Below, one piece after another: positions 16,621 to 42,054 of a stretch of DNA of 44,933 bases (position 1 is its first letter; each line of letters begins with the position of its first letter). The notes beneath the pieces are model-generated. The model made no database searches and was not told where the DNA came from. It saw only the letters and a program-made list of their open reading frames with translations. The stretch covers positions 1 through 44,933 of IMG/VR virus record IMGVR_UViG_3300021957_000076; one strand, 5' to 3'. This stretch comes from a virus. The translations under genes were made by a program, and so were the position numbers.

Positions 16621-16694
16621 GTCTGACCTCCTGTAAGTTAGTATAGAATGAAATAAACGTATTGGGTGCAAGGAGATGTTGGTCGTCTAAGTGA

Positions 16695-28375: not shown

Positions 28376-28953
28376 GAACTTTTTACAAAAGTTTCCCAAG
28401 ACTTCATTCGCTTGCTCTTAGGAACTCTGTAAAGAAGGTTGGTCTCTGGTGAGTACAACCTATGTCTCACCTTCCACCCAATTTCGTTGAGTAGTCTGTC
28501 TCCCTTCTTAGAGTTACATGCACCACAACAAGCAACTACATTGTCATAGGAGTTTCTTCCTCCACGACTTGTAGGTATGACGTGATCGATTGTACGATTG
28601 GCACTTGTGAGTGTCTTGTCGCAGTACCCACACTTATTACCATCTCGTTCAAATACTTTCCTCTTACTAATGTTGAGAGAGGTTCTCTTCTTTTGAAGAG
28701 AGTTAGTGTTAAGGACGATGATCTCTGGGATCATGATCCACAACTTCTCTGAACGCATAGTAGAGTCTACATCTTGAATGTTGTTCTTCTCGACCCATTG
28801 AGTGAAGGTGAATAGTTCGTAAGTCTTAGGGTCCATTGCTTTCCCCTCATCACCAATAAGGTAACCCAGACTCTTCTTCACTCCTTCGACACTCAAAGGT
28901 TGAAAACTCTTGTTCAAAATAAGAGAATACCTTTTACGGTCATTCATATTCAA
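28372..28953 (-). CDS. HNH endonuclease
   Basis: 193 residues. The C-terminal half has the McrA-type HNH core: ERDGNKCGYCDK, IDHVIPTSRGGRNSYDNVV and CCGACNSKKGDR, with both zinc CxxC pairs and the catalytic DH-N-N residues intact. The N-terminal 90 residues resemble the RRSxxLILNKSFQPL-type domain of phage HNH proteins. Likely an active nickase or homing enzyme. Confidence 0.85.
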   Translation of the reverse strand: MNMNDRKRYSLILNKSFQPLSVEGVKKSLGYLIGDEGKAMDPKTYELFTFTQWVEKNNIQDVDSTMRSEKLWIMIPEIIVLNTNSLQKKRTSLNISKRKVFERDGNKCGYCDKTLTSANRTIDHVIPTSRGGRNSYDNVVACCGACNSKKGDRLLNEIGWKVRHRLYSPETNLLYRVPKSKRMKSWETFVKSS

Positions 28954-32524: not shown

Positions 32525-32595
32525 GTTGGATGATGGGTAACGCGCCCACTTCTATAGATTCACAGTCTACCGCTTTACTTTTAAGCTACATCCAA
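32525..32595 (-). tRNA. tRNA-His(GTG)
   Basis: Acceptor TTGGATG/CATCCAA, D-arm GCTT-AAAAGTA-AAGC, anticodon loop CTGTGAA, T-loop CGCGTTA (G55). Discriminator C73 as expected for His. No encoded CCA. D-loop lacks GG and has AG. Confidence 0.9.
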
Positions 32596-32597
32596 AG

Positions 32598-32674
32598 TCG
32601 TGATGGAAGGATTTGCACCTTCGTGTAACTAACTACTCTTTCTACTGCATATGAAACAGAGGAGATACACCACG
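32598..32674 (-). tRNA. tRNA-like, probably Ile(CAT), irregular centre
   Basis: Acceptor CGTGGTG/CATCACG is nearly that of tRNA-Ile(GAT) at 38636, and the T-arm is GAAGG-TGCAAAT-CCTTC. The middle does not fold normally: a hairpin CTGT-TTCATAT-GCAG offers a CAT anticodon, but the D-arm is missing and about 22 bases follow before the T-arm. May be a rearranged Ile2 tRNA or a pseudogene. Confidence 0.5.
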
Positions 32675-32679
32675 TTAAG

Positions 32680-32750
32680 AGAGGATACTGGGTTACGCTC
32701 CCAGAACTTGACCTTGGCAAGGTCATGTGATACTATTTCACCACATCCTC
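32680..32750 (-). tRNA. tRNA-Gly(GCC)
   Basis: Acceptor GAGGATG/TATCCTC, D-arm GTGA-AATAGTA-TCAC, anticodon arm TGACC-TTGCCAA-GGTCA, T-arm CTGGG-AGCGTAA-CCCAG. Discriminator U73 fits Gly. No CCA. Confidence 0.95.
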
Positions 32751-32756
32751 ATAAAG

Positions 32757-32827
32757 TAGTCCGTCAGGGTTACGCTCCCCATCGTTCTCCATGTAAAAGA
32801 GAAATGCTGCTATTACATCAACGGACC
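32757..32827 (-). tRNA. tRNA-Val(TAC)
   Basis: Acceptor GGTCCGT/ACGGACT, D-arm ATGT-AATAGCA-GCAT, anticodon loop TTTACAT, T-loop AGCGTAA. A73. No CCA. Confidence 0.9.
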
Positions 32828-32829
32828 TT

Positions 32830-32908
32830 GTGTTTTTTAGATTCTTTCAACTCTATCATATGACTGTTTTTAGGAAAACACCATCATATGACGAAAAACG
32901 ATAATATA
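32830..32908 (-). other. Intergenic with palindromic repeats
   Basis: Contains ATCATATGA twice and GTTTTTAGGAAAACAC, imperfect inverted repeats that may mark a transcript end between the tRNA-Val gene and 32909-33727. Confidence 0.3.
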
Positions 32909-33727
32909 TTAAAGTCTTTTATCAAGACAAGATTTGACAAACTTATCTGACATAGTAAAGCATTGTTGTGTGCTACTAATACCAAAGTTTCCAAATACGT
33001 CAAGATGTATATTATTAAGATTAGTTTTGTTACCAAAATGCAACTTGTAATGCACATCAGAAGAGATGCATGGCAAACCAAATATAGGTGCTATGTAACT
33101 ACCTCCTCCCATACCAAGGGTGAGTTCTGCATTACTCATAATCTTAAGTTGCTTATATAAGAAATCGGGGTCGTCTAAAGTATCCTTGTAAAGATGATAA
33201 TCACCCAAGTCTCTATAGTTAGGTATATTGTCATAACCCACATCGAACGTATTGCCCATTACATATACCTTATAACCTTTATCATTTACAATCTTCTTGT
33301 ACTCCAACCAATATTTAAATGGAACTGTTATCCCACCCGCATTGGTTGTTCTACCATCTATGTCATAGGTACTTGGATGCCAACGTTCTGCTAAGTTAGG
33401 TATGAAGCAAACATACTTCTCATCGATCTCTCTTTCTGCTTTTGGGAATGCAAGAGACTTAGATACCTCTTGAGGTGTATAACTTCTATTGAACGAGTCT
33501 ATTAAAAAATCATATGTCTTAGTAGGTTCGCAATCCATGTTTACTATATATTCATCTGCGAATTGTTTTGATATTTCCTTGGGGAAATTATGCGACCCTG
33601 TGACTTTTATCTTTTCATTAGGATGCTTTTGTTTATAGATGAATGAGGCCCATACTTGTCTAACCAAGTCAGGACTAAATTCGAATGGTTTTATGCGATA
33701 ATCAAACATACCATCATTATAAATCAT
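32909..33727 (-). CDS. Glycosyltransferase-like protein (GT9/heptosyltransferase-type C-terminus)
   Basis: 272 residues. The C-terminal half, YKVYVMGNTFD then SNAELTLGMGGGSYIAPIFG and LPCISSD, follows the GT-B pattern in which a nucleotide-sugar enzyme senses a conserved Gly-rich loop (compare GT9 'sG..HlAaalg.P'). The N-terminal half lacks a clear acceptor motif. It sits inside the tRNA array; it may use the deoxysugar made by the RmlB/RmlD-like enzymes. Substrate unknown. Confidence 0.6.
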   Translation of the reverse strand: MIYNDGMFDYRIKPFEFSPDLVRQVWASFIYKQKHPNEKIKVTGSHNFPKEISKQFADEYIVNMDCEPTKTYDFLIDSFNRSYTPQEVSKSLAFPKAEREIDEKYVCFIPNLAERWHPSTYDIDGRTTNAGGITVPFKYWLEYKKIVNDKGYKVYVMGNTFDVGYDNIPNYRDLGDYHLYKDTLDDPDFLYKQLKIMSNAELTLGMGGGSYIAPIFGLPCISSDVHYKLHFGNKTNLNNIHLDVFGNFGISSTQQCFTMSDKFVKSCLDKRL

Positions 33728-33773
33728 ATATGATCGTTTTTAGGATCGTATGAACAACATATACAATAAAAAG

Positions 33774-33848
33774 TAGTGATGGGGAGATTTGCACTCCCAA
33801 ACGATACGCTCTCAACGTATCAGGTCTGCTAGTTGCCGTCACATCACC
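33774..33848 (-). tRNA. tRNA-Leu(GAG), short variable loop
   Basis: Acceptor GGTGATG/CATCACT, anticodon arm ATACG-TTGAGAG-CGTAT, T-arm GGGAG-TGCAAAT-CTCCC, A73. D-loop CTAGCAGA shows AG instead of GG. The variable loop is only about 5 bases, whereas bacterial Leu tRNAs have a long arm. Confidence 0.9.
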
Positions 33849-33853
33849 ATAAG

Positions 33854-33920
33854 TATCTCCATTAGGTATCGCACCCAACCTAAATCCTTCGTAGGGATTC
33901 GTCCGTCTGTCGGTGGAGAC
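33854..33920 (-). tRNA. tRNA-Arg(ACG), 67-base form
   Basis: Acceptor GTCTCCA/TGGAGAT, shrunken D hairpin CCG-ACAGA-CGG, anticodon arm AATCC-CTACGAA-GGATT, T-loop TGCGATA (G55). A73. Unusually short. Confidence 0.85.
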
Positions 33921-33925
33921 AAGAG

Positions 33926-34013
33926 AGGAAGAAGTCGGTAACGCTCCGAAATGCCTTTCACGACACCCAATTCCTTAGCAGGGAATGCTGATCACTATCA
34001 CAGTTCATCTTCC
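33926..34013 (-). tRNA. tRNA-Ser(GCT)
   Basis: Acceptor GGAAGA/TCTTCC, D-arm CTG-TGATAGTGAT-CAG, anticodon arm ATTCC-CTGCTAA-GGAAT, long variable arm, T-loop AGCGTTA. Confidence 0.9.
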
Positions 34014-34057
34014 ATAAAGTCCAATTTTGCTAAGCAGGCCTTGGACCAGGGCGGAAG

Positions 34058-34143
34058 AGGAGAGCATCGGTAACGCTCCGAAATGCATCCCTACATCCAT
34101 CTATTTTCGAAATAGAGTCAAGGACTTCCTTAAGTTACTCTCC
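34058..34143 (-). tRNA. tRNA-Ser(CGA)
   Basis: Acceptor GGAGAGT/GCTCTCC, anticodon arm TCTAT-TTCGAAA-ATAGA, variable arm ATGTA...TGCAT, T-loop AGCGTTA. The D-arm is a tight hairpin TTAAGG-AAGT-CCTTGA. Between this gene and tRNA-Ser(GCT) lies a hairpin GTCCAA...TTGGAC (34018-34045). Confidence 0.9.
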
Positions 34144-34147
34144 ATAG

Positions 34148-34235
34148 TGGAAGACGGAGGAGTTGAACCCCATAGCCATCCCTGACTATCCTCAGCTTTC
34201 AAAACTGCGACAATGCCCGCATTGCAACATCTTCC
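34148..34235 (-). tRNA. tRNA-Ser(TGA), canonical elbow
   Basis: Acceptor GGAAGAT/GTCTTCC, D-loop with GGG (CAATG-CGGG-CATTG), anticodon loop TTTGAAA, variable arm ATAGTC...GGCTAT, T-loop TTCAACT. This is the only Ser tRNA here with a normal T-loop and the only one with GG in the D-loop. Confidence 0.9.
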
Positions 34236-34240
34236 ATAAT

Positions 34241-34315
34241 AAGGGGATAATACAGGGATCGAACCTGTCACCTCAATCAAGCGGTGGACTCCAAGACACT
34301 ATCACTGATACCAAG
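34241..34315 (-). tRNA. tRNA-like, unassigned
   Basis: A clean canonical T-arm ACAGG-TTCGATC-CCTGT (34252-34268) and a hairpin CACC...GGTG are visible, but no 5' acceptor strand pairs with ATTATCC and no standard anticodon arm forms; CTTGGAG could present TGG. Probably degenerate. Confidence 0.35.
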
Positions 34316-34330
34316 GAGCGACCTTGATAT

Positions 34331-34362
34331 CTCTATTTGGGTTTCGAACCCCAAACATAGAG
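34331..34362 (-). other. tRNA minihelix-like hairpin
   Basis: CTCTATG directly joined to a T-arm-like hairpin with loop TTCGAAA and then ATAGAG: acceptor stem plus T-arm with no D-arm or anticodon arm. It touches the 3' end of tRNA-Ser(GGA). A deletion remnant or a processing signal. Confidence 0.5.
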
Positions 34363-34446
34363 GAAGATAGGGGTAACGCTCCCCAACGCATTTCTACGTC
34401 CACCATGTTTCCAACATGGACTGATCACTATCACAGATTATCTTCC
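34361..34446 (-). tRNA. tRNA-Ser(GGA)
   Basis: Acceptor GGAAGAT/ATCTTCC, D-arm as in Ser(GCT), anticodon arm CCATG-TTGGAAA-CATGG, variable arm ACGTA...TGCGT, T-loop AGCGTTA. Confidence 0.95.
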
Positions 34447-34451
34447 ATAAG

Positions 34452-34525
34452 AGCCCCTGGTGGGTTTCGCTCCCACGATCTTTTGCTTTGCAGGCAACTG
34501 CCTTGACTATCTTGGCTACAGAGGC
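34452..34525 (-). tRNA. tRNA-Cys(GCA)
   Basis: Acceptor GCCTCTG/CAGGGGC, D-arm GCC-AAGATAGTCAA-GGC, anticodon arm TTGC-CTGCAAA-GCAA, T-arm GTGGG-AGCGAAA-CCCAC. U73 as required for Cys. Confidence 0.9.
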
Positions 34526-34530
34526 ATGTA

Positions 34531-35172
34531 TTAAAATTTTAATTTCCTTCCTTTCTCCCATCCTTTTGATATCCACTGATTAAGTTCTTCAAGAACTACC
34601 ATTTTACTTTGTTTTTTGGCAATATGGTGGACCCAGCATTTACCAAAATTTACATTTTTTTCACCTTTTTGGTGTACTGAATTAGCTTTTCCTATTTTCT
34701 TTTTTGTTTCATTGCTATGTTTTTTCCCATTCCACCAAGATTCATTTTCACTAAAATATAATTTTAATCCATTTGAAACTTTTTCTTGGAATTCTTTTTT
34801 ATATTCTTCGTCTTCTAATAATTTTTTAGTTACTTCTCCTCCTTTTTTTCCGTTGTCGTTTTTATTATTAAGCCCTTGTTTATTAGCGTAGTACCAACTA
34901 CCGCATTTTCCTCCAAGTGCGACATTATATGTATCTAACCTTGAAACAAATTCTTCATTTACTAAATCTTCTTCTATGGAAAACATTTCTTCTTCATTTT
35001 CACAATCAAAAAGTATTTCTTTCTTAAAATGCGCCTCTCCATATTTATTATATGCTCTTTTTAGTAATGTGCCTGACCCCATATAATCATCGTTTTTATC
35101 GTCTGTTTTATGACAACCAATATATATTTTGTTGTTAATAGTGTTCATTATTTTATAAATTAAGTAGTGCAT
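34531..35172 (-). CDS. GIY-YIG homing endonuclease with NUMOD3 repeats
   Basis: 213 residues. The N-terminal YLIYKIMNTINNKIYIGCHK is the GIY-YIG core, followed by YMGSGTLLKRAYNKYG and an E-containing helix. The C-terminal half has NUMOD3-like DNA-binding repeats (GKKHSNETKKKIGKAN). Free-standing, seg-type. It has its own late box and AAGGAG. Inserted between tRNA-Cys and tRNA-Glu, it could promote spread of the tRNA cluster. Confidence 0.9.
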   Translation of the reverse strand: MHYLIYKIMNTINNKIYIGCHKTDDKNDDYMGSGTLLKRAYNKYGEAHFKKEILFDCENEEEMFSIEEDLVNEEFVSRLDTYNVALGGKCGSWYYANKQGLNNKNDNGKKGGEVTKKLLEDEEYKKEFQEKVSNGLKLYFSENESWWNGKKHSNETKKKIGKANSVHQKGEKNVNFGKCWVHHIAKKQSKMVVLEELNQWISKGWEKGRKLKF

Positions 35173-35193
35173 AGATTCTCCTTACTACACTAC

Positions 35194-35201
35194 TATTTAT
35201 A
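35194..35201 (-). promoter_or_regulatory. T4-type late promoter
   Basis: TATAAATA on the minus strand, 21 bases before the GIY-YIG ATG. Confidence 0.65.
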
Positions 35202-35227
35202 AAAGTGCGATATCAATATTGCACTTT
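35202..35227 (-). terminator. Hairpin, probable terminator
   Basis: AAAGTGC / GCACTTT stem with 12-base loop; the minus-strand 3' side runs into TTTT of the late box. It would end tRNA transcription before the endonuclease gene. Confidence 0.5.
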
Positions 35228-35283
35228 AACAGAAAAGTGACCCATCCGTGCCTTCGACTGCTCGGACCAAGGACGCATGTTAT

Positions 35284-35354
35284 TAGGGTGTAGGGGTTAT
35301 GCTCCCCTGCTCTCAGTTAGAAAGACTGATGTGCTGCTATTACACCAACACCCC
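35284..35354 (-). tRNA. tRNA-Glu(TTC)
   Basis: Acceptor GGGGTGT/ACACCCT, D-arm GTGT-AATAGCA-GCAC, anticodon arm TCAGT-CTTTCTA-ACTGA, T-arm AGGGG-AGCATAA-CCCCT. Confidence 0.95.
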
Positions 35355-35355
35355 A

Positions 35356-35600
35356 AGAAAGCACACAAAACACATTGACTTCTGCTCGTAACCCTCTGAA
35401 CCTTTTCGTAAAGGACATTGGGAATATTATTGCATCTTACTAATAGATGCCCGAACTACCCAGGGACTACCTGGGAGTTTCTGTTTTGCATTAAGGTTGT
35501 GCTAATCCCCCTATATACCATAGGAAGTGGTTTTTTGTGGTTATGACTCCACTTCTTTCATGGGGCACCCTTCCCCACTATCCGACCATAACTCGGAGTG
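35356..35600 (-). other. Structured gap, possible decayed tRNAs
   Basis: No gene. Minus-strand hairpins include a D-arm-like GCATCT-ATTAGTA-AGATGC (35435-35453), CCCAGG...CCTGGG near 35460, CCTTT-ACGA-AAAGG near 35405, and a T-arm-like GTGG...CCAC near 35540. No full tRNA folds. Confidence 0.35.
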
Positions 35601-35605
35601 TCCTG

Positions 35606-35842
35606 TTATTTATCACTCCATTCTTCACAAAAATCTTTGTCATAGATGTGATAGTAAATGGAATGAAATATACTTGCTAAAGATGGTAAAATCAAAAAAG
35701 ATCCCAAACCCATTTTCACTGCAATACTTGGACGGAAATAATACATTCTCCAAAAGGTGAAATCTTTGTGTCTCACTGACCATAGCAATGACATATCGGT
35801 GATGGCTACCACCAACACAATATAAAGATAAATTTCTAACAT
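35606..35842 (-). CDS. Small membrane protein (78 aa)
   Basis: Behind AAGAGG, from an early promoter at 35865-35891. N-terminal hydrophobic helix (YLYIVLVVAITDMSLLW) and a second near residues 40-60 (MGLGSFLILPSLASIF), with topology suggesting two passes. Within the tRNA array. Unrecognised. Confidence 0.65.
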   Translation of the reverse strand: MLEIYLYIVLVVAITDMSLLWSVRHKDFTFWRMYYFRPSIAVKMGLGSFLILPSLASIFHSIYYHIYDKDFCEEWSDK

Positions 35843-35864
35843 GTCTAACCTCTTAATAGGATGC

Positions 35865-35891
35865 CTTTATTATACACCCCTAAAAAGGTTG
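35865..35891 (-). promoter_or_regulatory. Early sigma70-like promoter (15-base spacer)
   Basis: TTGACA and TATAAT on the minus strand before the small membrane protein gene. Confidence 0.65.
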
Positions 35892-35898
35892 TCAATGT

Positions 35899-36279
35899 TT
35901 AATTATAAGAAATACCTGTATTTTTACCAAGACCTGTTGAAATGCTTTTTGATAAGGAACCACTAGGGTCTTTTCCAAAACTTGAATCCTTGCTTTTCAT
36001 TGAGTTAGTGTAAAGTTCTAATGCTTTAGCCAACTTTTGTTCTTCAGGAGATAATTCAACGTCTTTTTCTCTAAGTACCTTAACTAGAAAAGCAAGAACC
36101 TTTTGAAGGTTGTTGACGATGTACTTTTCAATCGTATCTCCTATGCCCTCATTCACAATAGTGAAAGTGTTTAAATATTCTTCTAGATTATCTGTGCTTT
36201 TCAGACCCTCTAAAAGATATTCAGATGCTTTTTCTAAAAGGTTGGATGATTCTACTAAATTTACATATTCTTGTTTCAT
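35899..36279 (-). CDS. Tagged helical protein (MKQEYVNLVE family)
   Basis: 126 residues beginning MKQEYVNLVESSN. The body is amphipathic helices (VNNLQKVLAFLVKVLREKD) with a Ser/Gly-rich tail. Stop and next start overlap by 4 bases. Capsid targeting inferred from the tag. Confidence 0.7.
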   Translation of the reverse strand: MKQEYVNLVESSNLLEKASEYLLEGLKSTDNLEEYLNTFTIVNEGIGDTIEKYIVNNLQKVLAFLVKVLREKDVELSPEEQKLAKALELYTNSMKSKDSSFGKDPSGSLSKSISTGLGKNTGISYN

Positions 36280-36587
36280 GTTTTCTTCCTATTGGTCAAG
36301 AAAATCGACCCTAAAACGATAATGATGACGAGGAGAGCATAGAGTAAAGGATTACCCCCATCTTCCTCGTTTGATGGTGTTTCTACATTGACTATCTTGA
36401 AAGCATTGCCTTCAAAGTCTCTCAAAAGCCCATCGTCTTCCACCTTTAATATAGGTGAGACTTGCGTGTGTTCTAATACGTGCCCTACTTCAATGGTAGG
36501 TGACTCAACAACTTCGTACTTTGCTGTGCCATATGCATATCCTGTGTTCATTAAAAAGAACATTAATATAAAAAGTGATCTTTTCAT
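36276..36587 (-). CDS. Exported protein with C-terminal membrane anchor
   Basis: 103 residues. Signal peptide MKRSLFILMFFLMNTGYAYG at the start, an acidic extracytoplasmic part, and a C-terminal transmembrane helix (LLYALLVIIIVLGSIFL) followed by NRKKT. Overlaps both neighbours by 4 bases. Likely an envelope-located phage protein, perhaps superinfection exclusion or lysis timing; not established. Confidence 0.7.
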   Translation of the reverse strand: MKRSLFILMFFLMNTGYAYGTAKYEVVESPTIEVGHVLEHTQVSPILKVEDDGLLRDFEGNAFKIVNVETPSNEEDGGNPLLYALLVIIIVLGSIFLTNRKKT

Positions 36588-36838
36588 TTTAACTCCATAT
36601 GATAGTAACCTTCAACAGTTAAAACGTACTTTCCTGGTTTTAAATGTTTCATGAAGATAGGTTCTTCGTCGGTATATGCATCATAAGGATGGGATCTCTT
36701 TGGATCATGGTAGAGAGTTGCGGTTGCTTCCTCTTTAAGTCTAAAGGTATTTCTACCACTATAAGACCAACCTGTTCTTTGTGTGGCTGCTCCAACACAA
36801 ATGATAAACGCTAATAATCCACAAAGTATTTTCTTCAT
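36584..36838 (-). CDS. Secreted small protein
   Basis: Start at 36838 (MKKILCGLLAFIICVGAA), five bases after the late box. Signal peptide of ~20 residues, then a ~64-residue beta-rich domain (TATLYHDPKRSHPYDAY, LKPGKYVLTVEGYY). Overlaps the next gene by 4 bases, so the two are translated together in the envelope. Unrecognised. Confidence 0.7.
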   Translation of the reverse strand: MKKILCGLLAFIICVGAATQRTGWSYSGRNTFRLKEEATATLYHDPKRSHPYDAYTDEEPIFMKHLKPGKYVLTVEGYYHMELK

Positions 36839-36843
36839 ACTTT

Positions 36844-36851
36844 TATTTATA
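36844..36851 (-). promoter_or_regulatory. T4-type late promoter, 5 bases from the ATG
   Basis: TATAAATA then five bases then ATG 36838: predicted leaderless. Confidence 0.65.
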
Positions 36852-36853
36852 AA

Positions 36854-36925
36854 AGTCCCATGCGAGATTTGCACTCGCCCCTTGAGCTTGGAAGGCTCTT
36901 ATGCTGCTACTAACACCAATGAGAC
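36854..36925 (-). tRNA. tRNA-Gly(TCC)
   Basis: Acceptor GTCTCAT/ATGGGAC, D-loop TAGTAGCA, anticodon loop CTTCCAA, T-arm GCGAG-TGCAAAT-CTCGC. U73. Confidence 0.9.
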
Positions 36926-36931
36926 ATGAAA

Positions 36932-37047
36932 CGGATAACATTTTTACGTTGCTCTACCAACTGAGCTACCGAAGTTTTCACTAAGGGTGAGATTCGAACT
37001 CACGACATACGGCTTAAGAGGCAGTTTGTAATTGCTGTTAGCTATCC
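36932..37047 (-). ncRNA. Y RNA-like (YrlA-type) with circularly permuted tRNA-Lys(CTT) module
   Basis: Terminal stem GGATAGC/GTTATCC, then TA-ACAGCAA. Inside, in order: anticodon arm ACTGC-CTCTTAA-GCCGT, ATGTC, T-arm GTGAG-TTCGAAT-CTCAC, CCTTAGT-GAAA-ACTTCGG (acceptor strands joined by a tetraloop), TA, D-arm GCTC-AGTTGGTA-GAGC, A. Rotated, these make a standard 72-base tRNA with two acceptor mismatches. It lies 6 bases upstream of tRNA-Gly and 9 bases downstream of tRNA-Asp, so tRNA processing could release it. Y RNA identity inferred. Confidence 0.7.
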
Positions 37048-37056
37048 TGAAATTAG

Positions 37057-37127
37057 CGACCAATAGGGGTAACGCTCCCCTTCCAGATCCTGGACAGGGA
37101 TCTGTGCTACTTTTACACCAATTGGCC
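37057..37127 (-). tRNA. tRNA-Asp(GTC)
   Basis: Acceptor GGCCAAT/ATTGGTC, D-arm GTGT-AAAAGTA-GCAC, anticodon arm GATCC-CTGTCCA-GGATC, T-arm AGGGG-AGCGTTA-CCCCT. G73 as expected. Confidence 0.95.
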
Positions 37128-37211
37128 AGACTGTTGTTTTTGTTTATCCGGTTCCGACAGAGTATGGCGTACTAGGGGGGGATCCAGAACAATGTCTAAA
37201 ACTGGATTTAG

Positions 37212-37282
37212 TGAACCGTGAAAGAGTCGAACTTTCGTGAATGGATTAAAAAGCCATTATTCTGCCATTGAATTAACGGTCC
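37212..37282 (-). tRNA. tRNA-Lys(TTT), canonical elbow
   Basis: Acceptor GGACCGT/ACGGTTC, D-arm ATTC-AATGGCA-GAAT with GG, anticodon loop TTTTTAA, T-arm GAAAG-TTCGACT-CTTTC, A73. Confidence 0.9.
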
Positions 37283-37384
37283 GTATTGAGAAGTTTCACC
37301 CCAACCACAACAGGACTATTGGGGAATTTGCCTTGTCCTGCTTTATAACCATCCACAACTTCTCTGATGGTCTTACGCTCTTTT
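37273..37384 (-). pseudogene. Coding remnant between ASCH gene and tRNA-Lys
   Basis: In the -1 frame relative to the ASCH gene an open stretch reads VKERKTIREVVDGYKAG then KFPNSPVVVGVKLLN and stops inside the tRNA-Lys 5' strand. Composition looks protein-coding but no start codon with a ribosome site exists. Either a remnant cut by tRNA insertion or a frameshifted extension of the ASCH protein. Confidence 0.4.
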
Positions 37385-37826
37385 ACTTTATGACTTTAAT
37401 TCCATTTCTTGGAAAATCATAGGGGAATAACTTAGGTTTATCGTACTTTTCTATATCAATAACCATCCACCCATATCTAGGATTCTTATTAGGTCTATTC
37501 TTAAGATCGAATCCGCTATCTTCAGGAACCATATGTAGGTGGCGATCTTTCTCCCACTCTTTAAACCCTATGTCATTTATAGGATAAGTTTTGTCTTCAC
37601 TAAACACCACCTTGCCTATTGTGTATTTCTTTTTCCCTATGTAAGTAACCAACTCAATAGGTTGATCTTTTAGCATAGGGAATTTCTCTATGGAAACACC
37701 TCTTGTCTCAATGGTCTTTTTACCATTGATGATATTCTCTGCGAACTTGGCTCTTTTGTTGTGAACTAAGATAGCATTGTTATCTTCTGCTACTTGCGTT
37801 TCTTCGAAAAATCTTTTAAATGACAT
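37383..37826 (-). CDS. ASCH-domain protein with tag-like N-terminus
   Basis: Start at 37826 (MSFKRFFEETQ), five bases after a late box; the longer form to 37871 would run through tRNA-Arg and is rejected. About 147 residues. The ASCH core has KFAENIINGKKTIETRG, then a beta-barrel with IGKVVFSEDKTYP and YGWMVIDIE. ASCH proteins bind RNA, and some are nucleases or amidohydrolases. The N-terminus resembles the MSFK tag of presumed capsid proteins, but FEE replaces a clean L/I-x-E. Confidence 0.75.
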   Translation of the reverse strand: MSFKRFFEETQVAEDNNAILVHNKRAKFAENIINGKKTIETRGVSIEKFPMLKDQPIELVTYIGKKKYTIGKVVFSEDKTYPINDIGFKEWEKDRHLHMVPEDSGFDLKNRPNKNPRYGWMVIDIEKYDKPKLFPYDFPRNGIKVIK

Positions 37827-37831
37827 ATCTT

Positions 37832-37839
37832 TATTTATA
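37832..37839 (-). promoter_or_regulatory. T4-type late promoter, 5 bases from the ATG
   Basis: TATAAATA on the minus strand, ATG at 37826. Confidence 0.65.
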
Positions 37840-37841
37840 AG

Positions 37842-37913
37842 TACCTCCTCAAGGAATTGCGCCTTGACCAAAAGTTTAGAAGACTCTTATGCTGTCTGTT
37901 ACACCAAGGAGGC
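37842..37913 (-). tRNA. tRNA-Arg(TCT)
   Basis: Acceptor GCCTCCT/AGGAGGT, D-arm GTGT-AACAGACA-GCAT, anticodon arm AGAGT-CTTCTAA-ACTTT, T-arm CAAGG-CGCAATT-CCTTG (G55). Confidence 0.9.
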
Positions 37914-37919
37914 ATGTAG

Positions 37920-37992
37920 TACCTTCGCTGGGAATCGCACCCAGTCAACCTCATTTTCTAAGAATGAGAGCTCGCTAATGGCTTACGAAGGC
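37920..37992 (-). tRNA. tRNA-Leu(TAG), short variable loop
   Basis: Acceptor GCCTTCG/CGAAGGT, D-arm AGC-CATTAGCGA-GCT, anticodon arm TCATT-CTTAGAA-AATGA, T-arm CTGGG-TGCGATT-CCCAG, A73. Variable loop about 5-6 bases, as in tRNA-Leu(GAG). Confidence 0.9.
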
Positions 37993-38272
37993 TTGTTTTT
38001 TTATACAAACACAATTGACACTTTTTAGAGTCATCAAGATATTTGTAAGGACAATCATTTTCGTTTTCGAGGATTTTATCAGATATTATCTTCGTCGATT
38101 TCATAATTGTTTTCTTTTCACAACCATGTAAAGTGTGACTAACCCTTTGGAGTTTATGAAAAGTGTCAAAGAGTTCTATGTTGGGGCATTGTTCGTTCAT
38201 GGTAGTGTATAGTAACCACCATGCCAACATATTCGACCTGTTTTGGTTGTTTTCTGCTATGTCTTGCGACAT
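37958..38272 (-). CDS. Hypothetical cysteine-containing protein
   Basis: 104 residues. NMLAWWLLYTTMNEQCP near the N-terminus and CPYKYLDDSKKCQLCLYKK near the C-terminus suggest a metal-binding cluster. Its last 11 codons run into tRNA-Leu(TAG), so the true end or even the gene is uncertain. No convincing ribosome-binding site. Confidence 0.5.
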   Translation of the reverse strand: MSQDIAENNQNRSNMLAWWLLYTTMNEQCPNIELFDTFHKLQRVSHTLHGCEKKTIMKSTKIISDKILENENDCPYKYLDDSKKCQLCLYKKTSLRKPLASSHS

Positions 38273-38298
38273 TGCTGTTGCTTATTGCAACGTTAAAG

Positions 38299-38369
38299 CT
38301 CCTCATCCTGGTAACGCTCCAGGCACTGTCGGGTAACAACCGAATATGATACTAATTCACCAATGAGGA
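38299..38369 (-). tRNA. tRNA-Asn(GTT)
   Basis: Acceptor TCCTCAT/ATGAGGA, D-arm GTGA-ATTAGTA-TCAT, anticodon loop TTGTTAC, T-arm CCTGG-AGCGTTA-CCAGG. G73 as expected. Confidence 0.9.
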
Positions 38370-38483
38370 ATATAAGTTGTTAGTCTACTCTCAAACTAAC
38401 AAAGTCACGCACAAAGTTCTCCGACCAAGGGACATCATAGTACGTTTTGATGGGTCACGATTATCCCCGTGAAAGGATATAGG

Positions 38484-38630
38484 CTCCCGATGAAGGAATT
38501 GAACCTCCTCTACTCTTTTCCAGAGCGTGCTATGACCATGTTCTAGATCATGTCGAAATGCTCTCTAGGAATACTTTCTAGAATGATTCCTAAAAATGCA
38601 GATCGTGTCATACCATTACACTAATCGGGC
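38484..38630 (-). tRNA. tRNA-like with ~75-base insertion
   Basis: Acceptor GCCCGAT/ATCGGGA (pair 1 G-A mismatch), canonical D-arm GTGT-AATGGTATG-ACAC, and canonical T-arm GGAGG-TTCAATT-CCTTC. Between them lies an extra ~75 bases that fold into TAGGAAT...ATTCCTA and AGAGC...GCTCT hairpins. A GAA triplet in GCTC-TGGAAAA-GAGT could be the anticodon, but base 33 is G. Amino acid not assignable. An intron or an RNA domain inserted at the anticodon arm is possible. Confidence 0.5.
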
Positions 38631-38635
38631 TTGAG

Positions 38636-38707
38636 TCGTGATGGATGGATTTGCACCATCGACCAATTCTGTATCAGAGAATCACTCTACTGCTGAGTTA
38701 CATCACG
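38636..38707 (-). tRNA. tRNA-Ile(GAT)
   Basis: Acceptor CGTGATG/CATCACG, D-arm ACTC-AGCAGTA-GAGT, anticodon arm ATTCT-CTGATAC-AGAAT, T-arm GATGG-TGCAAAT-CCATC, A73. Confidence 0.95.
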
Positions 38708-38720
38708 TTATAATATCAAG

Positions 38721-38792
38721 TAGGGGTACAAGGAGTCGAACCTCAATTAACTGGATCAAAACCAGTTGTAATAGCCGTTATACCATACCCCT
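38721..38792 (-). tRNA. tRNA-Gln(TTG), canonical elbow
   Basis: Acceptor AGGGGTA/TACCCCT, D-loop with GG (GTA-TAACGGCTAT-TAC), anticodon arm ACTGG-TTTTGAT-CCAGT, T-loop TTCGACT. Confidence 0.95.
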
Positions 38793-38798
38793 ATGAAA

Positions 38799-38855
38799 CA
38801 GGTAACATATAAGTCAAGTTTCAGATTTGATTGTTTAAATTGCTGTTAGTTACCT
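38799..38855 (-). ncRNA. Short Y RNA-like RNA
   Basis: Terminal stem AGGTAAC/GTTACCT followed by G, then TA-ACAGCAA and one small hairpin TCAA...TTGA; no T-arm. About 57 bases, 6 bases upstream of tRNA-Gln. The first stem base pair differs from its relatives by a compensated change. Confidence 0.55.
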
Positions 38856-38921
38856 TGAAAATCGTAACACTTTTTTTGCACGATAACCTTAAGTATGTTA
38901 CTGTGCATTGTGTTAGTTAGT

Positions 38922-38996
38922 TGCGGGTCCGGGTAACGCTCACCGGATAGTCAACTGCTTATGAGGCAGAGGAGGTCACTTTCCCTTCTCACCCGC
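38922..38996 (-). tRNA. tRNA-Met(CAT)
   Basis: Acceptor GCGGGT/ACCCGC, D hairpin AGG-GAAAGTGA-CCT, anticodon arm CTGC-CTCATAA-GCAG, T-arm around AGCGTTA with one extra base, A73. Initiator or elongator not resolved. Confidence 0.8.
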
Positions 38997-39012
38997 TTTG
39001 TTTGTTTAATAG

Positions 39013-39131
39013 TATATGAGGAAGGAGTCGAACCTTCATTGCTGCCATAGTTTTCGAAGTGCCCTTCTACTTGCTCGAATCGAACGAGCCACTCAACTGC
39101 CGTTGGGAGTTTACCATTTCTCCACTCATAT
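39013..39131 (-). tRNA. tRNA-like with extra T-arm and 66-base centre
   Basis: Acceptor ATATGAG/CTCATAT, canonical D-arm GGAG-AAATGGTAAA-CTCC, canonical T-arm GAAGG-TTCGACT-CCTTC. The centre contains a second T-arm-like hairpin GCTCG-TTCGATT-CGAGC and two GGCA-loop hairpins (CAAC-GGCA-GTTG and GAAG-GGCA-CTTC); no normal anticodon loop. 119 bases in all. Amino acid not assignable. Confidence 0.5.
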
Positions 39132-39133
39132 AG

Positions 39134-39204
39134 AGCACCCACTCGGTAACGCTCCGAGGTCTAAAGATTACAAAACTTTTATTCTGCTATTGAACTATAG
39201 GTGC
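39134..39204 (-). tRNA. tRNA-Thr(TGT)
   Basis: Acceptor GCACCTA/TGGGTGC, D-arm GTTC-AATAGCA-GAAT, anticodon loop TTTGTAA, T-arm CTCGG-AGCGTTA-CCGAG. Confidence 0.9.
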
Positions 39205-39245
39205 ATAATGGTGGAGTTTTGAAGAAGAACCCCCTAACTTCCAAG

Positions 39246-39356
39246 ATGATTACATCTCACCTTGTAAGAAATCCCATGAACCTCAAGGGCAAAGTCATCA
39301 TTTTACGAGAAACAATGAAAAACGAAATAGCAAGGTTGCCTAAAGACAATGGGTAG
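39246..39356 (+). CDS. Possible small protein (36 aa)
   Basis: An open frame from ATG 39246 with coding-like content (HLVRNPMNLKGKVIILRETM) in an otherwise empty 230-base gap between tRNA-Thr and the next tRNA-like gene. No ribosome-binding site; it could be a remnant. Confidence 0.25.
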   Translation: MITSHLVRNPMNLKGKVIILRETMKNEIARLPKDNG

Positions 39357-39432
39357 ATCTCCCCTTAGAGTCTCTAGTCTTCATTATCGGACAACCCAAA
39401 CGACAATCTTATAACACAATCGATCTTGTTAC

Positions 39433-39503
39433 AGGGTCAAGAATGCCCCTGGGAGCAACTCCCCAATGCTGTTACCACGTTTGTGTTACGAAATATCTGA
39501 CCC
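39433..39503 (-). tRNA. tRNA-like, possible Pro(GGG)
   Basis: A 7-bp acceptor GGGTCAG/TTGACCC spans a tRNA-sized 71 bases. AGCA-TTGGGGAGT-TGCT could present GGG, but no T-arm of normal form is seen. Possibly degenerate. Confidence 0.35.
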
Positions 39504-39504
39504 G

Positions 39505-39581
39505 TCTAAATGACTGGGATATGCATCTCCCTACATCACCTAATTGTAACGACAATGGATAGGCCAACATTGTCCAAGAAG
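39505..39581 (-). other. Gap with hairpin
   Basis: Minus-strand hairpin GACAATG...CATTGTC (39550-39575) and GGGA...TCCC near 39520; no complete tRNA recognised. Confidence 0.3.
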
Positions 39582-39654
39582 TCCCCGCCTCTGGAGTCGC
39601 ACCAGAATCCACTGCGTTTCAAACAGTTGCTTGTACTACATAAGCTAAACGGGG
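39582..39654 (-). tRNA. tRNA-Phe(GAA)
   Basis: Acceptor CCCCGTT/GGCGGGG, D-arm GCTT-ATGTAGTAC-AAGC, anticodon arm ACTGT-TTGAAAC-GCAGT, T-arm TCTGG-TGCGACT-CCAGA (G55), A73. Confidence 0.9.
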
Positions 39655-39875
39655 TTAAAGTTTTATAGTTTGTGGCAAGGAAGAAACTCATACACCTTAT
39701 CATTGGCTTATTGTACTCAAACTCCCTTGTGTGTATGTGGACTGTACAATCCCATCCCACACGACATTTCCCAGCCACCACTAGGGTCTACTATTGTGGA
39801 TAGCAAAAAACCACTTTGATCTTGTCGTAAACAAAGAAACGTGTCATTTACGTTGACCAACGGATAGAGCCCATC

Positions 39876-39919
39876 CAAAGAATTGAACTTTGACCGATTG
39901 TGGTGATCAAATACAATCG
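39876..39919 (-). other. Isolated T-arm and stem, tRNA-like remnant
   Basis: A stem CGATTGT...ACAATCG followed by a canonical T-arm CAAAG-TTCAATT-CTTTG. No acceptor stem pairs. It overlaps the end of 39907-40407. The stretch 39660-39875 holds no gene I can support, only hairpins such as CGTAAA...TTTACG. Confidence 0.3.
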
Positions 39920-40407
39920 TCCCCAGTCTGGGCATATTTTTTATTCCTTGCTTTTTTCTTCTCTTGAAACTTTTCTATTTCTTCCTGTTCTTTTTTTCTT
40001 TCTTCTTGAAGGTCAATAACTAAAACAGGATCAATATCGGCAATCTCTTGACCTAATGTTTTTAATTCTTTTCTTTTCTTTGGATCATCTTCGTTTATCA
40101 AATCTAACCCAACTTGTCTAATTTGTGCGTTTTCTTTACTTTGTTTTGCCTTCTCTTTATTCTCTTCAAGGTGTTTGATTGTTTCATAATCATCGATTGT
40201 ATCCAATATTTGATTGAGAATATCTACTTTTTCTGTCATCTTAACTTCTTCAAGTTCATTCTTAACCTTGTATATTTTATCATCCATTTTTTTCAATTGT
40301 TTTTTGAGTAGTTTCAATAAACTCCCCTCTAAGTCAGATAAAAGGAAACACCCTATAATCATGACTATCACTAGCAACGCTGAAAAGAAACCTAGAACAA
40401 AAAACAT
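39907..40407 (-). CDS. Membrane-anchored coiled-coil protein
   Basis: 166 residues: N-terminal hydrophobic helix (VLGFFSALLVIVMIIGCFLL), then a Lys/Glu-rich coiled coil to the end (LQEERKKEQEEIEKFQEKKK). Same plan as 9720-10154 but without shared motifs. Late box at 40434-40441. Function unknown. Confidence 0.7.
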   Translation of the reverse strand: MFFVLGFFSALLVIVMIIGCFLLSDLEGSLLKLLKKQLKKMDDKIYKVKNELEEVKMTEKVDILNQILDTIDDYETIKHLEENKEKAKQSKENAQIRQVGLDLINEDDPKKRKELKTLGQEIADIDPVLVIDLQEERKKEQEEIEKFQEKKKARNKKYAQTGDDCI

Positions 40408-40433
40408 ATTATTACCTTAAGTTAATGCAATAA

Positions 40434-40441
40434 TATTTATA
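40434..40441 (-). promoter_or_regulatory. T4-type late promoter
   Basis: TATAAATA on the minus strand before 39907-40407. Confidence 0.6.
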
Positions 40442-40447
40442 GTTTAG

Positions 40448-40520
40448 TGGAAACGAAGAGAATCGAACTCTTCCAGAAACCTCGCAAGGGTTTCTCGCCA
40501 GCCTTGGTACATGCGTCCCC
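40448..40520 (-). tRNA. tRNA-Ala(TGC), canonical T-loop
   Basis: Acceptor GGGGACG/CGTTTCC, anticodon arm AAACC-CTTGCGA-GGTTT, T-loop TTCGATT, A73. The D-region (TACCAAGGCTGG) carries GG but forms only a tight hairpin. Confidence 0.85.
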
Positions 40521-40525
40521 AATAA

Positions 40526-40581
40526 CGGATAACATTTTATTTCGCCAAATGAAAGTTTGTTGAAGTTGCTGTTAGTTATCC
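40526..40581 (-). ncRNA. Short Y RNA-like RNA
   Basis: Terminal stem GGATAAC/GTTATCC followed by G, TA-ACAGCAA, and a small hairpin TTTC-ATTTGGC-GAAA. 56 bases, no T-arm. The stop codon of 40576-40806 lies within its 5' stem strand; tRNA-Ala begins 5 bases after its 3' end. Confidence 0.55.
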
Positions 40582-40806
40582 TAAAAGTTTTTTGAAATCG
40601 GGAAGAACTTGCTCAAGACATGTCATTTCTTGAGTGGTAGGTTCATCCCCATTTATTATCTTACGCAGTCTAAAGGTTGCTATACACGTTAGTGCTGCGA
40701 CATCCTCCAAACCATATCCTGTACGATTCATTGCTCTCACCAAAGGATGATCTTCGTCACTTTGAACCTTTATATATTCATTAGGATGGTTTTTCTTTGG
40801 ATGCAT
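40576..40806 (-). CDS. Small HTH (XRE/Cro-like) protein
   Basis: 76 residues. GYGLEDVAALTCIATFRLRK then IINGDEPTTQEMTCLEQVLP follow the helix-turn-helix pattern (turn at AALTCIA, recognition helix FRLRKI). ATG lies six bases after a late box. A late regulator, or a Cro-fold protein with other function. Confidence 0.6.
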   Translation of the reverse strand: MHPKKNHPNEYIKVQSDEDHPLVRAMNRTGYGLEDVAALTCIATFRLRKIINGDEPTTQEMTCLEQVLPDFKKLLG

Positions 40807-40912
40807 AAAAGATATTTATATCTAGGAAGGGGTTTTCCATATACCATTGTATATGCTGTCCCCTCTTCAACGACCAATTAATATCGTCAAAGTCAATTTC
40901 CCCTCCATCATT
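40781..40912 (-). pseudogene. Coding remnant overlapping the HTH gene start
   Basis: An open stretch reads DGGEIDFDDINWSLKRG then QWYMENPFLDINIFYASK and stops at 40781. No ATG/GTG/TTG in frame; an ATT behind GGAGGGG is the only candidate. The late box for the HTH gene lies within it. Probably the 3' remnant of a lost gene. Confidence 0.35.
40813..40820 (-). promoter_or_regulatory. T4-type late promoter, 6 bases from the ATG
   Basis: TATAAATA on the minus strand, ATG at 40806. Confidence 0.6.
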
Positions 40913-40977
40913 TTAAAGGAGAAGAATCCCATCCAAGTGTGAAAATTGACAAAAACACTCTTAAGGGATTAAAAAAA

Positions 40978-41096
40978 CGGATAGCATGTTTCTTGGGCGG
41001 ATGCTCTACCAACTGAGCTACCTTAGCTTTCGCTGCGGGTGAGATTCGAACTCACGACATTCTGCATGGAATAGAAATATTTGCTGTTAACTATCC
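40978..41096 (-). ncRNA. Y RNA-like (YrlA-type) with circularly permuted tRNA module
   Basis: Terminal stem GGATAGT/GCTATCC followed by G and a T-run; TA-ACAGCAA. Inside: anticodon-type arm TTCT-ATTCCATGC-AGAA (CCA possible), TGTC, T-arm GTGAG-TTCGAAT-CTCAC, CCGCAGC-GAAA-GCTAAGG, TA, D-arm GCTC-AGTTGGTA-GAGC, A. Same order, linker and mismatch positions as 36932-37047. It lies 9 bases downstream of tRNA-Trp. A separate normal tRNA-Trp exists, so this RNA is unlikely to be needed for decoding. Confidence 0.7.
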
Positions 41097-41105
41097 TAAA
41101 ATTAG

Positions 41106-41176
41106 CACGCCACCGAGGTTACGCTCCCCGTCTAAAACTTTTGGAAAGTCCTGTGCTACTATTACACTAGTGGCGC
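41106..41176 (-). tRNA. tRNA-Trp(CCA)
   Basis: Acceptor GCGCCAC/GTGGCGT, D-arm GTGT-AATAGTA-GCAC, anticodon arm GGACT-TTCCAAA-AGTTT, T-arm CGGGG-AGCGTAA-CCTCG, G73 as expected. Confidence 0.95.
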
Positions 41177-41179
41177 ATG

Positions 41180-41226
41180 AGGATGGGGAATTCACCTACC
41201 AGAGGTTTCATCCCCATCCTTTTTTA
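41180..41226. other. 9-bp inverted repeat, T-run on plus strand
   Basis: AGGATGGGG / CCCCATCCT with a 23-base loop; six T follow on the plus strand, so it resembles a plus-strand terminator, though no plus-strand gene is present. In minus RNA it would be a long hairpin with an inner ACCT-CTGGT-AGGT. Confidence 0.4.
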
Positions 41227-41242
41227 CAAACATCAATTGTTA

Positions 41243-41323
41243 AAGATCATTTAAGATTTACACCTAACCACGATCTTGTGTTGAAAGAGAAAGATTCCGA
41301 AGAATCTTTCGCCCCGACGATCC
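41243..41323 (-). tRNA. tRNA-like with UUCG-capped hairpin in place of D-arm
   Basis: Acceptor GGATCGT/ATGATCT, T-arm TTAGG-TGTAAAT-CTTAA. The D region is a 9-bp hairpin GAAAGATTC-TTCG-GAATCTTTC with a C(UUCG)G tetraloop. TCTT-TCAACAC-AAGA may be the anticodon arm, but base 33 is C, so the amino acid is uncertain (CAA or AAC). Confidence 0.5.
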
Positions 41324-41348
41324 ATGTGGACGAAAGGTTACTCAAAAG

Positions 41349-41436
41349 TGGAGGCACTCTGATTTGCACAGAGACAGACTTATTTGTACGCGGGGAGTTT
41401 ACAGCTCCTTGGGTTCGCTAAATACCCAGTACCTCC
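41349..41436 (-). tRNA. tRNA-Tyr(GTA)
   Basis: Acceptor GGAGGTA/TGCCTCC, D-arm TGGG-TATTTAGCGAA-CCCA, anticodon arm GGAG-CTGTAAA-CTCC, a ~20-base variable arm, T-arm CTCTG-TGCAAAT-CAGAG, A73. 88 bases as usual for Tyr. Confidence 0.9.
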
Positions 41437-41543
41437 ATATTGTCAAAGAACTTATCTAGTTCTCAGATAATTTAGAAAAGTAAATAAAGAAGATGAAATT
41501 ACCATGGACTCTCATCTTTACAACTAACCAGCGTTTCCACTAC

Positions 41544-41617
41544 ACTCTTCGCACGAACTCGCATCGTGTCTGGACCCAGGCAAGGGCCTGTGCGAACGTC
41601 ATACACTACCCGAAATG
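41544..41617 (-). tRNA. tRNA-like, possible Gly(GCC)
   Basis: Weak acceptor CATTTCG/CGAAGAG, D-stem GTGT/GCAC, anticodon arm GGCCC-TTGCCTG-GGTCC with one mismatch, clear T-arm CACGA-TGCGAGT-TCGTG (G55), U73. Possibly decaying. Confidence 0.45.
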
Positions 41618-41660
41618 TGAAGTTAGTTTTACTTTTCTAAATTGTCAAAGAACAAGAACC

Positions 41661-41688
41661 ATTATAGCAAGGGGTTTAACCTTGTCAA
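41661..41688 (-). promoter_or_regulatory. Early sigma70-like promoter within tRNA array
   Basis: TTGACA, 16 bases, TATAAT on the minus strand, preceded by GAATAGCAT. Confidence 0.8.
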
Positions 41689-41703
41689 ATGCTATTCTTA
41701 AAT

Positions 41704-41883
41704 AATTTAGGAAAATAGGTGTGTTGCTACACCAAAGAGATTCGTCATTTGTCCACTGGGATTTCACCTAGCGTCCAGTATTCGCTCCTTCCTATTACCA
41801 GAAGTTGCCACTTGGTACATGGTGACACTCTCACTCTTTAAAGGATCGCTACCTCTGAGCTAACCTTCCCATTTTCCTAAATT
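41704..41883 (-). ncRNA. Possible structured RNA bounded by 13-bp inverted repeat
   Basis: AATTTAGGAAAAT / ATTTTCCTAAATT form a perfect 13-bp outer stem. On the minus strand the 5' part contains a canonical D-arm-like TTAGCTCAGAGGTAGCGA after GGGAAGG, but no matching 3' acceptor or normal T-arm follows. Promoter at 41924-41951 faces it. Identity unknown. Confidence 0.4.
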
Positions 41884-41923
41884 GTCAAAGAACTAAAACC
41901 ACTCTCTCTAAAGTGGAAGAACC

Positions 41924-41951
41924 ATTCTACTAAGGTTTCCCTGTTTGTCAA
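41924..41951 (-). promoter_or_regulatory. Early sigma70-like promoter within tRNA array
   Basis: TTGACA, 16 bases, TAGAAT on the minus strand. Confidence 0.65.
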
Positions 41952-41966
41952 GTTCTTTTTTTTAAG

Positions 41967-42054
41967 TCGGAGTAGAGGGACTCGAACCCCCGAGGCTATT
42001 AAAAAGCTCCGCACCCCAAATGCGGCCCGATACCAAGCTACGGTCTATACTCCG
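41967..42054 (-). tRNA. tRNA-Pro(TGG), long variable arm
   Basis: Acceptor CGGAGTA/TACTCCG, D-arm CCG-TAGCTTGGTAT-CGG with GG, anticodon arm CCGCA-TTTGGGG-TGCGG, T-arm GGGGG-TTCGAGT-CCCTC, A73. The variable region is about 18 bases and can form a hairpin, which is unusual for Pro. Confidence 0.9.

Follow-up and report, generated by a model that had tools for sequence, protein, structure and literature searches.

At the elbow of transfer RNA (tRNA), formed by the D-loop and T-loop, RNase P, the ribosome and T-boxes recognize the G19-C56 pair; the elbow is modified by TruB at U55, by TrmH at G18 and by TrmA at U54. In the normal elbow, G18 inserts between residues 57 and 58 and bonds pseudouridine 55 (Psi55), and G19 pairs with C56 (PMC4810234). 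Departures from this arrangement have been described: the tRNA-Pyl of M. barkeri and D. hafniense lack G18-G19 and TPsiC, with a G13-C55 contact used instead in D. hafniense, and type II mitochondrial tRNAs have lost the D/T-loop consensus (PMC7609411). Eukaryotic initiator tRNA and some tRNA-Ala carry a natural A54-A58 variant (PMC7566577). Here we analyzed the tRNA array of the 44,933-base IMG/VR virus record IMGVR_UViG_3300021957_000076 (the window, meaning this whole stretch of DNA), which is classed as linear and is possibly a fragment. An earlier note, made from the letters alone, had proposed that A18-G55 replaces G18-U55 in most tRNAs of this array while G19-C56 is kept, and this reading is strongly supported by independent-pair covariation and by a mutual information ranking.

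The tRNAs described here share with canonical bacterial and phage tRNAs the cloverleaf, the G19-C56, G53-C61, U8-A14 and R15-Y48 pairs and the isotype-specific discriminator. The canonical elbow has G18-Psi55 and T54-A58, whereas here A-G stands at 18-55, U-A, A-U or G-G stands at 54-58, and positions 18 and 55 are unmodifiable. As the earlier note argued from the base that each enzyme modifies, G55 cannot be converted to pseudouridine, nor A54 to 5-methyluridine (m5U); by the same specificity, m5U cannot form from G54, nor 2'-O-methylguanosine (Gm18) from A18. Unlike tRNA-Pyl, in which G19-C56 has disappeared and the D-loop is small, the tRNAs described here retain G19-C56 and normal proportions, and the change affects many isotypes; A18/G55 D-loops are mostly 7-9 nucleotides, and neither the G19-C56 loss nor the shortened D-loop of the tRNA-Pyl type is found. 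Type II mitochondrial tRNAs lose the D-T contact, whereas here the contact appears to be rebuilt through a coupled change. In the A54-A58 tRNAs (eukaryotic initiator, some tRNA-Ala), positions 55 and 18 are not known to deviate from the normal bases. In 2003, Zagryadskaya, Doyon and Steinberg reportedly obtained suppressor tRNAs from D/T-loop libraries, with G54-A58 and G54-G58 as working substitutes for U54-A58; those were laboratory selections, whereas the G54-G58 pair here is a natural class. Phage T5 tRNAs that resist PARIS/AriB are, like these, altered relative to host tRNAs, but their changes lie at the anticodon stem-loop cleavage site and not in the elbow (PMC12409363). We found no report of A18-G55 phage tRNAs in the open-access literature, a search that left subscription papers and preprints mostly outside.

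The tRNA array lies on the minus strand at 32.5-42.1 kb of the window, with small genes interspersed among the tRNAs. In the window, ARAGORN detects 13 tRNAs and the Rfam tRNA model 14; to obtain the full set, a cloverleaf scanner whose score depends on stems and U33 alone was combined with a covariance model and visual inspection. The 27 recognizable tRNAs represent all 20 amino acids, with Met depending on a weak element at 38918. Of the 27, 22 carry G55, the number given in the earlier note, and five carry U55. The G55 T-loops are AGCGTAA, AGCGTTA, TGCAAAT, CGCGTTA, TGCGATT and similar, and C56 and G19 are retained. The note held that every G55 tRNA has A18-G19; this is clear in 20 of 22, the exceptions being 32599-32674 and Arg-ACG at 33855-33921, in which the D-arm is shortened or disrupted. 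All five tRNAs with a TTC T-loop (Ser-TGA, Lys-TTT, Gln-TTG, Ala-TGC and Pro-TGG) keep GG, as claimed. The window is therefore split into 20 A18 (G55) and 5 G18 (U55) tRNAs with zero exceptions (Fisher's exact test, ~2e-5, or 1 in C(25,5)). The proposed swap at 54-58 stood in part: A54-U58 occurs in the AGCGTWA class only, and the TGCAAAT class keeps U54-A58.

The covariation of D- and T-loop types extends beyond the window, to 385 loci and to phylogenetically independent pairs. A tree was built from 456 tRNA bodies without their D- and T-loops. Its supported branches provide 30 independent pairs with different bases at 55, and position 18 changes in the same sense in ~29 of these and in the opposite sense in 0 (sign test p ~4e-9). 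In 45 same-anticodon contrasts covering 25 anticodons, both sites differ on similar bodies, with identity up to 87%. This value was reached for Arg(TCT), where AACAGACA / CGCAATT in the window is set against ATTGGAA / TTCGACT in a canonical tRNA of phage cr106_1. The window tRNA-Thr(TGT) shares 77% body identity with the canonical tRNA-Thr of phAPEC8, and the body of its tRNA-Gly(GCC) resembles that of a canonical tRNA-Gly from Streptomyces phage Jada (AATGGTA / TTCGATT). Unsupervised mutual information over 1098 non-redundant tRNAs is led by 15-48, 18-55 and 54-58, with 8-14 also high. The ranking thus recovers known tertiary contacts, 18-55 among them, which supports the structural reading. 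A purine is retained at 18 alongside the strong 18-55 covariation, which bears on the T-loop motif, where purine 18 sits between 57 and 58 and touches 55; the 54-58 covariation, with U-A, A-U and G-G, would fit the closing pair of this motif. The coupled change at 18 and 55 is independent of descent.

To search for such tRNAs elsewhere, as the earlier note suggested, the AATAGYA / AGCGTWA pattern was run and matched 52 viral contigs. These loci and the window contain 488 cloverleaves, against 0 in shuffled sequence, with A18/G55 in 156, G18/U55 in 271, A18/U55 in 9 and G18/G55 in 4. In the enlarged set of 385 loci, mostly viral contigs, removal of search seeds and identical sequences left 1730 tRNAs, in which A18/G55 occurs 293 times in place of the usual G18-U55 pair (1260), with 20 A18/U55 and 18 G18/G55. 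Contigs picked through a normal-elbow tRNA yielded 21 non-seed A18/G55 tRNAs against 609 normal ones, in 16 of 93 contigs, so that such tRNAs are by no means rare among uncultured viruses. Four patterns differing only at 18 and 55 were also run on one viral collection, and their matches were checked as cloverleaves: at least 72 A18/G55 and at least 140 G18/U55 were verified, against 1 G18/G55 and 11 A18/U55. Only the latter two scans are complete, so the first two figures are lower bounds and not frequencies, but the mismatched combinations are nonetheless clearly depleted. Seed removal, shuffled controls and the four matched patterns rule out chance or search bias. Many A18/T55 pattern matches (L202-L264) come from prophage contigs of isolates, where they share an offset of 516-562. 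Most of them do not pass the cloverleaf test, and they resemble copies of a single repeated sequence more than tRNAs.

The A18/G55 tRNAs have the expected cloverleaf, with 7/4(3)/5/5 stems, U33, and anticodon loops and T-loops of 7 nucleotides. The discriminator base suits the isotype in 306 of 370 (146 expected by shuffling) versus 1307 of 1483 normal tRNAs, and the assignments that deviate from the E. coli table (Glu, Gln) do so alike in both elbow classes. CCA is encoded by 272 of 371, and U8, A14, purine 37 and G53-C61 are mostly retained. C56 is present in 324 of 335 G55 tRNAs, and the G19-C56 pair is retained, where G19 is partly built in because it was used for D-loop numbering, for which the T-loop was not consulted. 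By these sequence features, the A18/G55 tRNAs look like working tRNAs.

Position pair 54-58 is U-A, A-U or G-G in most G55 tRNAs and U-A in ~95% of U55 tRNAs, so that it deviates from U-A in ~49% of the former versus 5% of the latter. Release from the TrmA constraint would be expected to produce such diversification. The G54-G58 pair is used in phages other than that of the window. The tRNA-Lys(TTT) of Xanthomonas phage X1 (L065, 6002-6071) and of locus L003 have A54-U58 (ATCGTTA) with a normal G18/U55, indicating that the 54-58 swap is possible without the 18-55 swap. ARAGORN recovers 1683 of 1695 normal tRNAs (99%), 271 of 433 rewired ones (63%, with 37% missed) and only 7 of 79 (9%) in the G54-G58 class. 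Standard gene finders thus miss more than 1/3 of rewired tRNAs, and published phage tRNA counts probably underestimate the sets.

The rewired share was compared among 118 contigs with at least 8 classified tRNAs, some of which were picked by a rewired tRNA, inflating the high end. It is strongly clustered by contig (heterogeneity 200, null mean 95, null maximum 103): wholly or nearly wholly rewired arrays occur (15/15, 12/12, 11/11, 8/8 and 31/33; the window, 15/17 by the scanner), and 69 of the 118 contigs have <10% rewired tRNAs. No isotype is solely rewired in the 385-locus set. Two rewired phages, G003 and G008, are closely related, and G033 and G034 have genes in common with both. The window, G007, G009, G035 and G036 have few gene families in common with other rewired phages, so that at least five phage groups are probably involved. 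A18/G55 is absent from the ~210 tRNAs of 16 named phages (P1, N4, phAPEC8, cr106_1, Jada, Samisti12, X1, BF, Dulem virus 40, a 735-kb phage, KVP40, CcrColossus, G, Atu_ph07, S-PM2 and PAU), and similarity searches from rewired tRNAs in named phages gave only normal-elbow homologues among the matches examined, which were part of the lists. A pattern scan of 84,980 cellular genomes found the AGCGTWA form in 5 stretches, all on contigs of 24-43 kb from metagenome-assembled genomes (MAGs). The TGC form was found in 0 of 789 genomes besides two centres, the sole match being centre G043, the MAG that also gave L055. These two scans rule out a feature of host chromosomes. No phage-encoded TruB was found in 15 records. 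A shared gene was also sought as an explanation: an HNH endonuclease family is present in 7 of 9 rewired phages versus 1 of 6 controls, which is unconvincing among 129 families. Its window member (28372-28953, minus strand) may merely mark a phage lineage.

All tRNAs of the array are on the minus strand, and their D-loop / T-loop pairs are given below in order. The first is tRNA-His(GTG) at 32526-32595 (AAAAGTA, with A18 G19 / CGCGTTA, with G55; discriminator C73), followed by a weak tRNA-like element at 32599-32674 (25 bits with model R1) that has a TGCAAAT T-loop (G55) and no clear D-arm or anticodon. Then come tRNA-Gly(GCC) at 32681-32750 (AATAGTA / AGCGTAA), tRNA-Val(TAC) at 32758-32827 (AATAGCA / AGCGTAA), tRNA-Leu(GAG) at 33775-33848 (A18-G19 / TGCAAAT) and a tRNA-Arg(ACG)-like element at 33855-33921 with a short, doubtful D-arm and the T-loop TGCGATA (G55). 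Among four tRNA-Ser, GCT at 33928-34013 (long variable arm) and GGA at 34360-34446 have ATAGTGA in the D-loop and the T-loop AGCGTTA, CGA at 34056-34144 has a long variable arm and AGCGTTA, and TGA at 34147-34235 has a normal elbow (GG; TTCAACT). The tRNA-Cys(GCA) at 34453-34525 (A18-G19 / AGCGAAA) is followed by a gene at 34531-35172 (minus strand) for a NUMOD3-containing protein, probably of homing-endonuclease type. Further along are tRNA-Glu(TTC) at 35285-35354 (AATAGCA / AGCATAA), tRNA-Gly(TCC) at 36855-36925 (TAGTAGCA / TGCAAAT), tRNA-Asp(GTC) at 37058-37127 (AAAAGTA / AGCGTTA; discriminator G73), tRNA-Lys(TTT) at 37213-37282 (normal elbow, AATGGCA / TTCGACT), tRNA-Arg(TCT) at 37843-37913, whose loops are given above, tRNA-Leu(TAG) at 37921-37992 (TTAGCGA within the D-loop / TGCGATT) and tRNA-Asn(GTT) at 38300-38369 (ATTAGTA / AGCGTTA; discriminator G73). 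These are followed by tRNA-Ile(GAT) at 38637-38707 (AGCAGTA / TGCAAAT), tRNA-Gln(TTG) at 38722-38792 (normal elbow, AACGGCT / TTCGACT), the tRNA-Met(CAT)-like element at 38918-38999 (AAGTGA / AGCGTTA; weak model score, 17 bits), tRNA-Thr(TGT) at 39135-39204 (AATAGCA / AGCGTTA) and tRNA-Phe(GAA) at 39583-39654 (ATGTAGTAC / TGCGACT). The last are tRNA-Ala(TGC) at 40447-40520 (normal elbow, GG; TTCGATT), tRNA-Trp(CCA) at 41107-41176 (AATAGTA / AGCGTAA; discriminator G73), tRNA-Tyr(GTA) at 41350-41436 (long variable arm; ATTTAGCGA / TGCAAAT) and tRNA-Pro(TGG) at 41966-42054 (normal elbow, GG; TTCGAGT). Two elements at 38483-38633 and 39012-39133 (both minus strand) have a normal D-arm (GG), TTC T-arm ends, matching acceptor strands and long internal inserts, and are possibly intron-containing or split tRNAs.

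Within the array there are also two Rfam YrlA (Y RNA-like) matches, at 36925-37028 and 41000-41062 (minus strand), with 36.5 and 31.4 bits, below the gathering threshold of 69; related stretches carry a tRNA-Gly annotation in Corynebacterium phages. Elsewhere in the window, 15211-16671 (minus strand) encodes a phrog_850 'RNA-binding protein' with Pfam DUF2828 and DUF7788 and homologues in KVP40 and others. This protein is possibly Ro60/TROVE-like and could be a partner of the Y RNA-like elements; in Streptomyces phage Samisti12, a gene annotated as a Ro RNA-binding protein lies close to the tRNA array of that phage. A linkage of elbow rewiring to this gene was rejected, as it is present in only 2 of 22 records. 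Other phage genes of the window encode virion structural proteins, ribonucleotide reductase, a ClpA-like ATP-dependent protease, dUTPase and dNMP kinase; no relatives were confirmed among viral contigs through the ClpA-like protein.

We propose that A18 takes the inserted place in the rewired elbow and that G55 supplies the donors that normally come from G18. The lock between D-loop and T-loop would be rebuilt, with A18-G55 replacing G18-Psi55, G19-C56 kept, and U-A, A-U or G-G at 54-58. Since the G19-C56 face is unchanged, processing and translation should proceed; since the target bases of TruB and TrmH, and often that of TrmA, are gone, there should be no Psi55 or Gm18 and often no m5U54. 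The switch has arisen repeatedly, one isotype at a time, and some phages show it across the whole or nearly whole tRNA set. The gain may be an elbow that folds without host TruB, TrmH and TrmA, so that a large tRNA set made fast in infection would be stable unmodified and its supply independent of host modification capacity. Judging from sequence comparison, we give a probability of about two-thirds to the reading that these are working translation tRNAs with a rebuilt elbow, for which independence from host elbow modification is the most likely gain. Three points weigh against it. Most carrier arrays, including the window, are mixed, with normal-elbow tRNAs alongside rewired ones, so independence from modification is not needed by every tRNA. 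No phage gene tested in nine rewired phages and six controls accounts for the genome-level clustering. The diversification at 54-58 could be a purely structural consequence of a purine at 55. More tentatively, and at somewhat short of even chances, A18-G55 with U-A, A-U or G-G at 54-58 may be a second, self-contained elbow code that evolved repeatedly over whole tRNA sets. In this reading the host exerts the pressure at the genome level, either by cleaving or sensing tRNAs at the elbow or through the need for elbow modification, and phage and host tRNAs would become chemically distinguishable during infection.

Nuclease escape and neutral drift are serious rivals to modification independence. 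The earlier note suggested that the tRNAs are hidden from host enzymes or nucleases that read the elbow; loss of host modification is a direct consequence of the rewiring, and escape from cleavage is one possible reason only. If a nuclease or sensor of the host or of a rival recognized tRNAs by G18, T54 or Psi55 and the rewired elbow hid phage tRNAs from it, phage translation would survive a tRNA-directed defence. A tRNase that cuts the elbow exists, as CdiA-CT E479 severs the bond joining T to Psi in the T-loop of a tRNA-Arg (PMC9086364), phage T5 tRNAs set a precedent by evading the anticodon-stem nuclease AriB through cut-site substitutions (PMC12409363), and the several wholly rewired arrays suggest a genome-level pressure. 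We nevertheless consider such a shield rather unlikely, as most carrier arrays still contain normal-elbow tRNAs, every isotype also occurs with a normal elbow, the outer G19-C56 face is unchanged, and no elbow-reading phage-defence system was found in the literature searched. Also unlikely is neutral compensatory drift, in which weaker selection on phage tRNAs lets a single site change, probably giving A18/U55, before the second site compensates with no advantage. A18/U55 intermediates do occur, in the complete scan and in the loci, and mixed arrays are common, but the clustering by genome and the 100% rewired arrays are unexpected from site-by-site change alone, although part of the clustering could come from shared ancestry or en bloc array transfer. 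That the genes are degenerate or decoys outside translation is improbable: several window tRNAs are weak with odd D-arms (32599, 33855, 38918), but in stems, U33, purine 37, discriminator, G19-C56 and CCA the rewired tRNAs are conserved at close to the rates of normal phage tRNAs. Duplication of one odd ancestral tRNA that gained new anticodons, with loops agreeing by ancestry, is very improbable, for although AATAGYA / AGCGTWA-like loops recur within arrays, common descent or tandem duplication is contradicted by the 30 independent pairs, the same-anticodon contrasts, discriminators that fit each isotype, normal-elbow nearest neighbours of many rewired tRNAs, and bodies of different isotypes that are no more similar in rewired than in normal arrays (0.41 versus 0.41).

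These observations indicate that many uncultured bacterial viruses have repeatedly exchanged the near-universal G18-Psi55 contact for A18-G55. In cells, 18-55 is too conserved for covariation, and phages provide the natural double mutants. The rewired tRNAs may also offer parts for orthogonal tRNA design. They represent an evolution-tested alternative elbow without the capacity for Psi55 or Gm18, with which the purpose of elbow modification becomes directly testable.

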